Of a stretch of DNA of 64,000 nt, positions 3,380 through 49,885 are shown piece after piece (within the stretch, counting starts at the first letter, position 1; each line of letters begins with the position of its first letter). Source of the stretch: Pseudoduganella dura (GTDB lineage Bacteria; Pseudomonadota; Gammaproteobacteria; Burkholderiales; Burkholderiaceae_D); the NCBI RefSeq assembly GCF_009727155.1, contig NZ_WNWM01000002.1, forward strand, positions 3,968,001 through 4,032,000, written 5' to 3'. The notes beneath the pieces were generated by a model that was not told the origin of the DNA, did no database searches, and worked only from the letters and a program-made list of their open reading frames with translations. Both the position numbers and the translations under genes were made by a program.

Positions 3380-3392
3380 GGTGTCTGGCACC
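3380..3392. repeat. Degenerate GTGTCNGACAC-family core
   Basis: The 13-mer GGTGTCTGGCACC lies 115 bases after the cyanophycinase stop and is followed by GGTTTTCC, as in other copies in the window. It is a one-base variant of the GGTGTCNGACACC core. Confidence 0.45.
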
Positions 3393-3429
3393 GGTTTTCC
3401 GCCGGAGCATCCGATAACTTAAAAATAAT

Positions 3430-3459
3430 TGAATCCGCCCGCGCCCCCGGTGCGTATAA
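3430..3459 (+). promoter_or_regulatory. Possible ECF-type promoter of the DUF4331 operon
   Basis: TGAATCC at 3430-3436 and CGTATAA at 3453-3459 are separated by 16 bases, the geometry of an ECF sigma promoter, and lie 36 bases before the GTG start of the DUF4331 gene. The ECF sigma gene of this locus (10292-10909) is the obvious candidate to use it. No clearly matching copy was found upstream of the sigma gene, so this remains tentative. Confidence 0.35.
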
Positions 3460-3495
3460 GGCCACGCTGTACTCCACTACATAAAGGGGGATATC

Positions 3496-5004
3496 GTGGT
3501 CAACCTGATTCAACGTTCTTTACCCGTGGTTCTGCCTGTCGCGTTCACCATGCTCGCGTCGACGGCGGTGGCATCGAGCCACCGCGAAGCTCCGTTCATC
3601 GCCGGCATGCCGCGCGCCGACGCGACGGATTTCTACATGTTCCGCAGTTACGAGCCCGGCCGCGAGAAATTCGTGACGCTGGTGGCCAACTACCTGCCGC
3701 TGCAGGATGGTTATGGCGGGCCGAACTACTTCCAGCTCGATCCGAACGCGCTGTACGAGATCCATGTCGACAACAACGGCGATGCGAAGGAAGACATCAC
3801 GTTCCAGTTCCGCTTCGCCAGCACCAACAACAACGATTCGTTCGTTGTTGGCGGCAAGAAAGTGCCGATTCCCCTGATCATCAACGGCGGGGCGATCAAC
3901 GATGTCAATCCGCCGGGCCTGAACGTGCGCGAGACCTACACCGTGAACGTGGTGCGGGGCGACCGCCGCACCGGCACGCGCGAACGGATCGCCAATCCCA
4001 GCGGCGCGAAGGTGTTCGACAAGCCGGTCGACAATATCGGCAACAAGGCCATTCCCGACTATGCCGGCTACGCGGCGCGCCACGTATATGACGTGACGCT
4101 GCCCGGCTGCGCCACGCCGGCGCGCATGTTCGTCGGCCAGCGCAAGGATTCGTTCGCCGTCAACCTCGGTGAAACGTTCGACCTCGTCAACTACAAGTCG
4201 CCGGCGGTGGAGTTCGATGCGAACGCCGAGCGCAGCGCGCGCGACGACCTGGCCGACAAGAACGTGACCACGATCGCGCTGGAAGTGGCCGCCAGCTGCC
4301 TGGTGGCGCCGGGCAGCGCCGATCCCGTCATCGGCGGCTGGACCACGGCCAGCGTGCCGCAGGCACGGGTGGTGAACCCGGTGCCGTTCAATACCAACAA
4401 CGCCACGAAAGAGGGCGGCGCGTGGACGCAGGTATCGCGCCTGGGCATGCCGCTGGTGAACGAAGTGGTGATCGGCCTGAAGGACAAGGACCGCTTCAAC
4501 CACAGCCGCCCCAGCGGCGACACGCAGTTCCTCGCCTACGTGACGAACCCCACCTTGCCCGCGCTGGTGGAAACGCTGTTCGCCGGCGCCGGCGTGAAGG
4601 CGCCCACGAACTTCCCCCGCAACGACCTGGTGACCGTGTTCCTGACGGGCGTGCCCGGCCTGAACCAGCCGGCCAAGGTCACGCCGTCGGAAATGCTGCG
4701 GCTGAACACATCGATCGCGCCGGTGGCGAAAGGTTCGCAGAAGCGGCTCGGCGTGATCGATGGCGACAACGCCGGCTTCCCGAACGGCCGCCGGCCCGGC
4801 GACGACGTGGTGGACATCGAGCTGCGCGTGGCGATGGGCAAGCTGTGCACGCTGAACCTGGGCTGCGCGCCGGCCAATGCGCCCTCCGGCGCGATCCGGT
4901 TCACGGATGGCGCCTTCCTGGACGATGCCGCGTTCAACAATGCCTTCCCTTACCTGACCACGCCGATTCCGGGTTCGCCGCAATCGGTCGCGTCGCGGCA
5001 GTGA
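3496..5004 (+). CDS. DUF4331 family exported protein
   Basis: A 502-residue protein starting at GTG 3496 behind AAGGGGG. The N-terminus is a signal peptide ending near AVASS, and the mature protein begins SHREAP, a hallmark of DUF4331 proteins, followed by DATDFYMFRSYEPGR. Later motifs include DNNGDAKEDI (an Asp/Asn-rich loop that may bind calcium) and VVIGLKDKDRFN. DUF4331 is a family of unknown function; the visible features point to a secreted or periplasmic beta-rich protein. It is first in a tightly spaced operon with a lipoprotein, a TPR protein, a HupE/UreJ-like membrane protein and a TonB-dependent receptor, beside an ECF sigma/anti-sigma pair. This suggests a role in extracytoplasmic sensing or acquisition. 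No enzymatic residues were recognised. Confidence 0.9.
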   Translation: MVNLIQRSLPVVLPVAFTMLASTAVASSHREAPFIAGMPRADATDFYMFRSYEPGREKFVTLVANYLPLQDGYGGPNYFQLDPNALYEIHVDNNGDAKEDITFQFRFASTNNNDSFVVGGKKVPIPLIINGGAINDVNPPGLNVRETYTVNVVRGDRRTGTRERIANPSGAKVFDKPVDNIGNKAIPDYAGYAARHVYDVTLPGCATPARMFVGQRKDSFAVNLGETFDLVNYKSPAVEFDANAERSARDDLADKNVTTIALEVAASCLVAPGSADPVIGGWTTASVPQARVVNPVPFNTNNATKEGGAWTQVSRLGMPLVNEVVIGLKDKDRFNHSRPSGDTQFLAYVTNPTLPALVETLFAGAGVKAPTNFPRNDLVTVFLTGVPGLNQPAKVTPSEMLRLNTSIAPVAKGSQKRLGVIDGDNAGFPNGRRPGDDVVDIELRVAMGKLCTLNLGCAPANAPSGAIRFTDGAFLDDAAFNNAFPYLTTPIPGSPQSVASRQ

Positions 5005-5014
5005 GGAGGCGATC

Positions 5015-48127: not shown

Positions 48128-49632
48128 GCTCTTCCCCCCGCGGTTCCCCGCGCGTGCTGGTGGTCGACGATGAAGACGACCTGCGCGACCTGCTGGAAAT
48201 CACGCTGCTGAAGATGGGCCTGGACGTGGACGGCGCCGCCGACCTGGCGCGCGCCCGCGCGCTGCTGGCCGCGCACGACTATGACCTGGTGCTGACCGAC
48301 ATGCGCCTGCCGGACGGGCTGGGGCTGGAACTGGTGCGGGAAATCGGCGCCGCCGGCCGCAACCTGCCGGTGGCCGTGGTGACGGCGTTCGGCAGCGCGG
48401 AAAATGCCGTGGTGGCGCTGAAGGCCGGCGCGTTCGACTACGTGACCAAGCCGGTGCAGCTCGACCAGTTGCGCCTGATGGTGCAGTCGGCCCTGAAACT
48501 GGCGGCGCCCGCCGGCCCCGCCGCGCCCCGCGCGGAACCGGTGGACAGCCGCCTGAAAGGGCAATCGGCGGCGATGCAGGCGCTGCGCGCCCAGATCGCC
48601 CGGCTGGCCCGGTCGATGGCGCCGATCGCGATCACCGGCGAATCGGGCTCGGGGAAGGAACTGGCCGCCCGCGAAATCCACGCGCAGGGCGCGCGCGCCG
48701 ACAAGCCGTTCATCGCCGTGAACTGCGGCGCGATTCCCGAAGCGCTGATGGAAGCCGAGTTCTTCGGCTACCGCAAGGGCGCCTTCACCGGCGCGGCGGA
48801 CGAGCGCGACGGCTTCTTCCAGGCCGCCAACGGCGGCACGCTGATGCTCGACGAAGTGGCCGACCTGCCGCTGGCGATGCAGGTCAAGCTGCTGCGCGCC
48901 ATCCAGGAACGGCGCGTGCGCAAGATCGGCGCCACCGCCGAGGAACCGGTGGACGTGCGGATCGTCAGCGCCACCCACCAGGACCTGGCGCGCTGCGTGG
49001 AGCAGGGCAGGTTCCGGCAAGACCTGTTCTACCGGCTCAACGTGATCGAACTGTCGCTGCCGCCGCTGCGCGACCGGCTCGACGACCTGCCGGTACTGAT
49101 CGATGCGATCCTGGTCCGCCTGTCCGCCGCCGGCGGGCAGCCGGCCGTGCTGGGCCCGGGCGTGCTCGATGCGCTGCGCGGCTACAGTTTCCCCGGCAAT
49201 GTGCGCGAGCTGGAAAACATCCTGGAACGGGCATTGGCGTTTTCCAACGACGGCGTGATCGACGCGGCCGACCTGGCGCTGAAGGGCGCGAAGCGGGTGG
49301 AAGCACCCGCTGCGGCCGTCCCGGCTTTATCCGCGGCTGCATCCGCGGCAGTTCCAGCGGCGCCGGCCCCGCTGCCGGATGCGGCATTGTCCATGCCGGC
49401 CGGGGCGCAAGCCGGGGAGCGCAGCGGCGAGCGGATGCCGCCGCTGCCGGATCTGTCTGTGCTGCCGTCGAACCTGCCTGCGTATCTCGAGCGGGTCGAG
49501 CGCGAGATCCTCCTGCGCGCCCTCGCGCAAACGCAGTACAACCGCACCCAGGCCGCGCAACTGCTCGGCATCAGCTTCCGGCAATTGCGCTACCAGATGC
49601 AGAAACTGGGCATCCAGGAGCCGGAGGGCTGA
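48124..49632 (+). CDS. pilR: Sigma-54-dependent response regulator PilR
   Basis: A 502-residue NtrC-type activator. The receiver domain has Asp59 in LVLTDMRLPDG; the AAA+ domain carries Walker A GESGSGKE, the sigma-54 contact loop GAFTGA (within EFFGYRKGAFTGA) and Walker B LMLDEVADLP. The C-terminal helix-turn-helix (QTQYNRTQAAQLLGISFRQL) follows an Ala/Pro-rich linker of about 60 residues. With PilS it activates sigma-54-dependent pilin (pilA) transcription; the pilA gene is not in the window. Confidence 0.94.
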   Translation: MSSSPRGSPRVLVVDDEDDLRDLLEITLLKMGLDVDGAADLARARALLAAHDYDLVLTDMRLPDGLGLELVREIGAAGRNLPVAVVTAFGSAENAVVALKAGAFDYVTKPVQLDQLRLMVQSALKLAAPAGPAAPRAEPVDSRLKGQSAAMQALRAQIARLARSMAPIAITGESGSGKELAAREIHAQGARADKPFIAVNCGAIPEALMEAEFFGYRKGAFTGAADERDGFFQAANGGTLMLDEVADLPLAMQVKLLRAIQERRVRKIGATAEEPVDVRIVSATHQDLARCVEQGRFRQDLFYRLNVIELSLPPLRDRLDDLPVLIDAILVRLSAAGGQPAVLGPGVLDALRGYSFPGNVRELENILERALAFSNDGVIDAADLALKGAKRVEAPAAAVPALSAAASAAVPAAPAPLPDAALSMPAGAQAGERSGERMPPLPDLSVLPSNLPAYLERVEREILLRALAQTQYNRTQAAQLLGISFRQLRYQMQKLGIQEPEG

Positions 49633-49656
49633 CAGGAATGGCTGAGGTAACTCGGC

Positions 49657-49662
49657 TATAAT
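49657..49662 (+). promoter_or_regulatory. Orphan TATAAT element after pilR
   Basis: A perfect -10 hexamer in CGGCTATAATGCCCGG lies 25 bases after the pilR stop and about 40 bases before a repeat cluster. No -35 box is correctly spaced, and no gene begins nearby, so transcription here would run into the repeats and toward nrdA. Confidence 0.35.
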
Positions 49663-49699
49663 GCCCGGCTGCCGCTTCCGGGGGCCTCATCCAGGGACT

Positions 49700-49885
49700 G
49701 GTGCCGGACACTTTTCCGGGCGCATGAGGACTCGTGCCGGACACTTTTTCCGGGTGCATGAGAACTGTGTCGGACACTTTGTCCGGGTGCTTCCATCCGG
49801 AAAAGGTGTCGGACACCGGTGTTGGCCTGCGTGCCCCGAGAACCGGTGTCAGACATCCTTTTCTTCGGAAAAGGTGTCGGACACC
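49700..49885. repeat. Cluster of six repeat cores, partly tandem
   Basis: Cores of the GTGTCNGACAC type start at 49700, 49733, 49766, 49805, 49845 and 49873. The first three units are tandem copies of a 33-base sequence beginning GTGCCGGACACTTTTTCCGG and ending in CATGAG-like bases. The later copies form hairpins such as TCCGGAAAAGG. The block lies 67 bases after pilR and far upstream of nrdA and contains no gene. Confidence 0.85.

Follow-up and report, generated by a model that had tools for sequence, protein, structure and literature searches.

The dispersed intergenic repeat with the 13-nucleotide (nt) core GGTGTCNGACACC, found in a 64-kb stretch of the Pseudoduganella dura genome (G000:C2:3968001-4032000, hereafter the window; the G000 genome comprises 6.95 Mb), very probably represents a set of REPIN-like elements, that is, hairpin-forming doublets of repetitive extragenic palindromic (REP) sequences. 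These elements appear to be spread, or to have been spread formerly, by a REP-associated tyrosine transposase (RAYT) of the subclass 2.1/TIRYT kind, whose gene, situated between greB and a relA/spoT-type gene, also has the repeat on its flanks. Two sets of genomes were used for comparison, namely, 60 genomes of the same genus (denoted by G numbers) and 268 sampled genomes from other genera of the same family.

The initial annotation of the window described a dispersed repeat family, and the counts bear this out. With at most two mismatches allowed, GGTGTCNGACACC has 20 matches in the window, where 3.0 are expected, and 100 dinucleotide-preserving shuffles never gave as many. Fourteen of the matches are intergenic and cover every place listed in that annotation; the other six lie inside called genes (2842, 14937, 18492, 21825, 23438, and 24287). 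The copies at 28062, 45186, 49805, and 49873 are exact, and the remaining listed places differ by one or two bases. Genome-wide, 129 exact copies were found versus none of the reversed pattern, which served as the control.

Counting the repeat in this and related genomes and mapping it relative to gene ends, as the initial annotation proposed, revealed enrichment after stop codons. Sequence context was examined for 100 of the 129 exact copies, which fall into 69 clusters. Genes were called with a home-made codon-model caller in which a call had to beat all five shadow frames, since antisense frames mislead (iscS would otherwise be placed on the minus strand). Among the 97 classifiable copies, 51 are in convergent and 46 in tandem gaps, with none in divergent gaps and none in genes, even though coding sequence makes up 85% of the DNA read around them. 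Counted by cluster, 37 are convergent, 29 tandem, and 3 at edges. Divergent gaps, which hold 24% of the intergenic bases of the window, contain none of the 66 placed clusters (P ~1.7e-8), whereas convergent gaps hold 22% of these bases but 37 of the 66 clusters (p 1.3e-9). The nearest stop is at a median distance of 57 nt, and of the 29 clusters in tandem gaps, 21 lie nearer to the upstream stop (Wilcoxon p 0.0015). The hexamer that most commonly adjoins the core is GGTTTT (52 of 200 core sides; the runner-up accounts for 11). The units take three forms: hairpin pairs, consisting of a core, a TTTTCC-type arm, a loop, a GGAAAA-type arm, and a second core, flanked on the outside by GGTTTTC or AG; closely spaced pairs in direct or inverted orientation; and single units. 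At least two copies (three mismatches allowed) are present in 57 of the 69 clusters, the off-site rate of such matches being 0.19 per 200 nt.

The REP-like nature of the family, also suggested in the initial annotation, is supported by a RAYT gene that carries the repeat core on both flanks. G000 encodes four Y1_Tnp proteins (L016, L017, L018, and L019), of which L018 (G000:C2:4583480-4584106, minus strand, 209 aa, open frame) lies 0.55 Mb beyond the window, with greB on one side and the relA/spoT-type gene on the other, as read from the translations. The flanks of the other three genes contain different sequences, GGGGTCAGACCCC for L017, GGTGCCAGGCACC for L016, and GGGGACTGTCCCC/GGGGACAG-type sequence for L019. 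L018 matches PF01797 with 44.6 bits (cut-off 23), and N59, H60, H62, and Y120 are invariant among 26 aligned sequences, placing it among the TnpA-Y1 transposases (HUH, one tyrosine). The match to the NCBIfam model REP_Tyr_transpos (NF047646; 66.0 bits, E 3.3e-18) is under the curated cut-off of 80, and the sole sequence match in PDB is 4er8 at E 0.09. L018 has the motifs NHVH, WEGR, YVEANP, and WSS, and the four members of its clade (see below) share NHVH, WEGR, YVEANP/YIEANP/YIELNP, and WSS; at the level of motifs only, the clade is assigned to the subclass 2.1/TIRYT kind. The TIRtron flank consensus GGGGWSAS is absent from the L018 core GGTGTCNG and is present in the cores of its relatives L017 (GGGGTCAG) and L026 (GGGGACAG).

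The distribution of the repeat follows that of this RAYT clade. Exact copies of GGTGTCNGACACC number 221 in G003, 143 in G020, 140 in G045, 129 in G000, 75 in G032, 25 in G038, and 15 in G046; the remaining 53 same-genus genomes contain 0-4 copies (controls, 0-2), and each of the 268 genomes from other genera contains at most 5. The closest relatives of L018 are in G045 (74% identity), G003 (64%), and G032 (61-63%), together with a split gene in G020 (81% and 65%). In a tree of 43 RAYTs, L018 and the RAYTs of G045, G003, and G032 form one clade (support 100/98); a Massilia locus (L128) is nested among the genus RAYTs, which suggests that the genus is Massilia-like. The G020 gene (L120, G020:C1:4525210) is split over two frames, and its fragment was too short for inclusion, so that its placement in the clade relies on identity. 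For 28 of the 60 genomes, the best match is included in the tree; for the other 32, it scores no more than 173 bits, compared with at least 265 bits for intact members of the clade. An L018-clade RAYT is encoded in exactly the five genomes with at least 75 copies (G000, G003, G020, G032, and G045; Fisher 1.8e-7 over 60 genomes, a figure that kinship makes an overstatement). Among the other 55 genomes, the nearest best match is the G028 copy (60-61%), which falls outside the clade in the tree. The clade members came from the genome search; a search for related loci yielded relatives of no more than ~53% identity, none of them in the L018 clade. As with L018, the repeat flanks the split L120 on both sides, and the G003 gene has its own variant of the core on both sides.

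Indeed, the cores beside the clade RAYTs differ, with GGTGACAGACACC in G003, GGTGTCGCACACC in G045, and GGTGACAGGCTCC in G032. The first two were read beside the RAYTs and then counted in all 60 genomes as a test of the prediction. GGTGACAGACACC is present in 165 copies in G003, 51 in G020, 4 each in G028 and G038, 1 each in G045 and G048, and none in the other 54 genomes (the reversed control is 0 everywhere), and GGTGTCGCACACC reaches 60 copies in G045, whereas none of the other 59 genomes has more than 4 (reversed control, up to 3) and G000 has none. Because the counts peak in G003 and G045, respectively, each variant has multiplied in the genome whose RAYT it flanks. These two cores are not palindromic, so the orientation of the copies can be read: neighbors less than 60 nt apart are in opposite orientation in 19 of 19 cases in G045 (60 of 60 sites listed), which preserves the arm pairing, and in 12 of 16 cases in G020 (51 of 51 sites listed). 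As in G000, the elements of G045, G003, G020, and G032 that were read repeatedly have AAAACC/GGTTTT as their outer flanks. The flanking habit is also seen in other RAYTs. Among the loci long enough for the test (29 of 56 genus RAYT loci and 48 of 80 named loci from other bacteria), and with one broken pair allowed in the palindromic core, both flanks carry such a core in 13 of 29 genus loci versus 2 of 29 control positions 1 kb off (p 0.002), some of the 13 (for example, L037 and L049) looking like chance, and in 11 of 48 named loci versus 1 of 48 controls (p 0.004), 8 of the 11 having GGGGTCAGAGCCC or GGGATCTGACCCC. The RAYT tree and the core type agree mostly clade by clade.

Taken together, these elements very probably constitute a REPIN-like population of non-autonomous, hairpin-forming miniature elements made of pairs or arrays of 13-nt cores with AAAACC/GGTTTT outer flanks. 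By analogy with the HUH family, the RAYT would move them via single-stranded DNA: it would bind the hairpin while the DNA is single-stranded, read the core, cleave it, and rejoin it at new single-stranded sites. Copies would then persist where a hairpin is least harmful, between a stop and the next gene and not in divergent promoter gaps, and the bias in position would thus reflect purifying selection. In the broad sense, the family conforms to REPs and REPINs, being a high-copy set of extragenic palindromic or inverted repeats that includes inverted hairpin doublets and has a cognate RAYT with repeat flanks; not every element is a hairpin doublet, direct pairs and arrays being present too.

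Several observations weigh against this interpretation. The foot of the hairpin has a GT[AG]G tag at 1 of 100 sites versus 3 of 100 control positions, and the repeats are thus not GTAG-tagged REPs; nor are they of the CGTC-tagged type (3 of 100 sites versus 3 of 100 controls). The shared GGTGTCNGACACC outnumbers the resident variant in both G003 (221 versus 165) and G045 (140 versus 60), such that the core at the RAYT flanks and the majority core do not coincide; a newer core may be expanding here alongside an older one that the genomes share. In G003, 18 of 36 close neighbors are in opposite orientation and half are direct, and direct arrays with a spacing of mostly 41 or 45 nt occur frequently, both observations being drawn from 66 of the 165 sites. 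The G045 RAYT is flanked by its own variant on one side only, and GGTGACAGGCTCC, which flanks the G032 RAYT, is a more distant core. G038 and G046 are above background without an L018-like RAYT: their 5 and 6 Y1 genes, respectively, are at best 49-58% identical to L018, and the four that were placed in the tree are all outside the clade. The copies in these two genomes may be remnants. The RAYT of G020 is split, yet 143 and 51 copies of two cores remain; the repeat population might outlive its transposase or might have lost it lately. A discrepancy also exists in a second RAYT system (L016, see below), whose core GGTGCCNGGCACC is present in 34 copies in G045, where the L016-type RAYT (L101) carries another core. 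Finally, no insertion event was directly observed.

A different cause for the placement of the repeats, advanced in the initial annotation, would be selection for a role as intrinsic terminators or stabilizers of mRNA 3' ends, with the RAYT link secondary. This would explain the proximity to stops, the strong hairpins in 6 of 8 GGTGTC- or GGGGTC-type elements in the window, and the presence of a separate canonical terminator in just 6 of 66 element gaps under a strict search, but we consider it improbable. Among the 29 tandem clusters, the GGTTTT side, with its T-run, is downstream in 12, upstream in 10, mixed in 2, and unoriented in 5, which is not the arrangement of intrinsic terminators. 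Furthermore, one copy is located between iscS and iscU, ~25 nt upstream of the iscU start. Taking the two genes, from their order, to be in one operon, this location argues against a strong terminator at that site. Nor does such a role sit well with the background counts of the core in 53 of the 60 genus genomes and in the other genera. The terminator function is not supported, although a part in mRNA stability might exist.

The iscS-iscU gap was compared in 30 genomes, with the loci of G034 and G045 left unscored. In 24 genomes, the gap is 24-63 nt long and has no element; an element is present in 3 of the 30. An inverted core pair occupies the gap in G000 (98 nt) and G020 (84 nt), and in G028 (146 nt), there are two hairpins with variant cores. 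This pattern of presence and absence looks like insertion, and the elements of G000 and G020 perhaps come from one shared event. The 161-nt gap of G032 contains another insert, which carries CACCGTACATAAAGTACGG, possibly related to the further repeat GTACTGTCTTCGACGATGCGCCTTGCCCTG described below.

We regard it as highly unlikely that the 13-mer is the binding site of a chromosome-organizing or regulatory protein (matS- or operator-like). The core is a dispersed palindrome of the same length as matS, 13 bp, but the 100 copies examined are distributed along the chromosome (25, 33, 9, 13, and 20 across the first five Mb) and shun divergent gaps, most clusters contain two or more copies, the family is patchy among species, and the G003 and G045 variants lose the palindrome while keeping paired copies. 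No strand bias along the chromosome was detected among the 61 oriented of the 100 sites (plus/minus 17/13, 8/6, and 8/9 in three successive parts). Least credible of all is that the repeats are relics of an ordinary inverted-repeat DNA transposon, similar to miniature inverted-repeat transposable elements, that flank the RAYT by chance: inverted pairs, intergenic location, and variable copy number are shared with such relics, but the variants specific to a genome match the sequence flanking its own RAYT, and other RAYTs show the same flank habit.

Within the window, the elements of the family differ in architecture and in folding. The strongest fold (z -9.0) is that of a hairpin pair at 32424..32474, where the core GGTGCAGGACACC (at 32428) is matched by GTGTCCTGCACT in the opposite arm; the 13-mer palindrome is gone, and the arm pairing is retained. 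The inverted pair at 28025..28074, in a convergent gap, consists of a decayed left unit, CGGACACCGGTTTT, and an exact right unit, AAAACC-GGTGTCCGACACC-AG, which together form one long hairpin (DNA fold z -6.7). Two hairpin pairs follow at 45101..45162 (core, TTTTTCCTGG stem, loop, CCAGGAAAA, core, and GGTTTTC; z -5.5) and, in a tandem gap, at 45178..45233 (GAAAACC, exact core 45186-45198, ATTTTCCC..GGAAAAT, and core 45216-45228; z -4.1). The compound element at 49695..49824 carries cores or remnants of cores at four places (49700, 49733, 49766, and 49805, the last exact) and has inner arms of the CCGG type (z -3.9; 1 of 200 shuffles folds as well), and is followed by a hairpin pair at 49838..49890 (AACC, core 49845-49857, CTTTTC/GGAAAAG stem, exact core 49873-49885, and AG; z -5.1). 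A degenerate single unit at 3380..3399 on the plus strand, with the core GGTGTCTGGCACC (one mismatch) followed by GGTTTTC, folds weakly (z -1.5), and the lone GGGGTCAGACCCC at 14347..14359, the core type that flanks RAYT L017 and a candidate member of the family, has no significant hairpin (z 0.07). Hence, the embedding in hairpins that was initially described holds for six elements (z -3.9 to -9.0) and fails for these last two. Similarly, the initial placement of the copies 11-115 bases from a stop is right as to nearness, but the copies at 49.7-49.9 kb reach ~250 nt from the stop at 49632. A scan of the window against Rfam at gathering thresholds matched no family.

Elements in the other genomes provide two further observations. 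L262 (G003:C1:521220-521660) is an array of six cores with a 45-nt period, five of them in the same direction, resembling the growth of arrays of bacterial interspersed mosaic elements. The same 14 bases, GTACATGGACGCCC, adjoin the core in four elements, L240 and L248 of G045 and L277 and L284 of G020; this sequence could be another repeat used as a target or part of a larger compound element.

The sequence GGGGTCNGACCCC, which had been listed as a variant of the same family, was rejected as such: it is the core beside other RAYTs, and its pattern over the 60 genomes (0-239 copies, present in 50) is unlike that of GGTGTCNGACACC. The copy at 13085 lies in a hairpin at 13065..13117 with perfect 26-bp arms, the outer arm GGCTGAGCCCGTGTCA, and the inner core GGGGTCTGACCCC (z -13.4). 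Hairpins with an outer arm CCGAGC(T/C)CGTGTCA enclosing GGTGCCNGGCACC are typical of the second system, that of RAYT L016, whose C-terminal part weakly matches a helix-turn-helix model (24.8 bits, cut-off 25), and the L016-type outer arm around GGGGTCTGACCCC assigns the hairpin at 13065-13117 to this system. Its right arm runs into a T-run (GTTTTTG) downstream of a gene ending at 13045, and judging from this arrangement, it could act as a terminator. High copy numbers of GGTGCCNGGCACC are seen in G000 (53), G038 (60), and G046 (129), all of which have an L016-type RAYT carrying it (on one flank in G046), and also in G016 (55), G051 (44), G017 (36), G048 (22), and G022 (20).

Another paralog, L019 (G000:C2:3283908-3287201), adjoins a gltB-like gene and has the relatives L118, L121, L117, L123, L122, and L124. 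In RAYTs of this type from G000, G045, G003, G020, G032, and G038, another residue takes the place of the first HUH histidine (PDQLH, PDQFH, or PDGLH), and the frame remains open (229-233 aa); the G046 protein, in which the motif is partly seen, is probably alike, and those of G027 and G014 retain PNHLH. The L019-type RAYTs with the replaced histidine are candidates for retention in a non-catalytic role. The window also contains a further dispersed repeat, GTACTGTCTTCGACGATGCGCCTTGCCCTG, at 3322-3351 and 37350-37379, the two copies being 83% complementary, and a related direct pair at 37259-37299 and 37330-37370.

More generally, the odds somewhat favor the view that RAYTs of subclass 2.1 (group 1/TIRYT) sustain a complete REPIN economy of their own, in which a variable core read by the protein takes the place of the GTAG guide, and core and RAYT diversify together within the genus, with species "keys" beside an older shared core. 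If so, this genus would be a natural experiment for the recognition code. The RAYTs of the GGTG...CACC family are 61-74% identical to L018, and their cores differ by a few bases at known places, so that comparisons and swaps could serve to map the residues that read the core. Several cognate families are present within one genus for a subclass that was said to have no repeats, and the link to the RAYT supplies a cause for repeats that could otherwise pass for terminators.

Among the papers searched, none contained any of six exact 13-mers as text, and no account of the GGTGTCNGACACC family was found, although one may still be in print. The closest published counterparts are the TIRtrons (Di Nocera et al. 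2013, PMC3733652), RAYT-like Y1 genes with inverted repeats, many of which contain GGGGWSAS and are moderately abundant. As described there, TIRtrons share with the present system the Y1 gene with inverted repeats and no GTAG, the dimers and clusters, and the self-complementarity of some repeats, and GGGGWSAS fits the GGGGTCAG and GGGGACAG cores beside the related RAYTs. The same description finds no obvious correlation between gene and repeat family and calls TIRYTs less productive, whereas here 75-221 copies track the RAYT clade and the GGTG...CACC core misfits the consensus. GTAG and CGTC REPs, according to that source, lie for the most part in convergent or tandem gaps close to the 3' ends of genes and form dimers, as do the repeats analyzed here, in which both tags are absent. 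With the REPINs defined in Pseudomonas (Bertels and Rainey 2011, PMC3116915), the family has in common extragenic inverted hairpin doublets, one population per RAYT, and clusters beside the RAYT; it differs in the lack of GTAG and in a 13-nt core that can itself be palindromic. To the E. coli RAYT (PDB 4er8), L018 bears a weak sequence likeness.

For the Stenotrophomonas and related kind of REPs, co-evolution of the RAYT with its flanking REPs and a correlation of RAYT presence with cognate REP abundance have been described (Nunvar et al. 2010, PMC2817692). Compared with those systems, the inverted repeat flanks of the RAYT and the co-variation are alike, and the RAYT branch and core class are different, so the co-variation reported here extends the known RAYT-REP co-evolution to another RAYT branch. 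In groups 2 and 3, which are GTAG-tagged, a recognition study locates cleavage at CT or CA near the hairpin, with a GTAG guide of varying weight (PMC8266576). The classification of Quentin et al. (2018, PMC6006769) puts 20 of 26 TIRtron genes in subclass 2.1, equates this subclass with Bertels group 1, and gives a median length of 238 aa and a prevalence in beta, delta, and epsilon proteobacteria. The NHVH, W[EQ], YIELNP, and SS motifs of that subclass are shared by the RAYTs described here (209-261 aa), L018 having A for L in the Y motif. In that survey, neither automatic nor manual search detected REP-like sequences with subclass 2.1, unlike the abundance of such repeats here. Thus, the family is a REPIN-like system of the TIRYT/subclass 2.1 branch, distinguished by another core class, high copy number, and co-variation with its RAYT.

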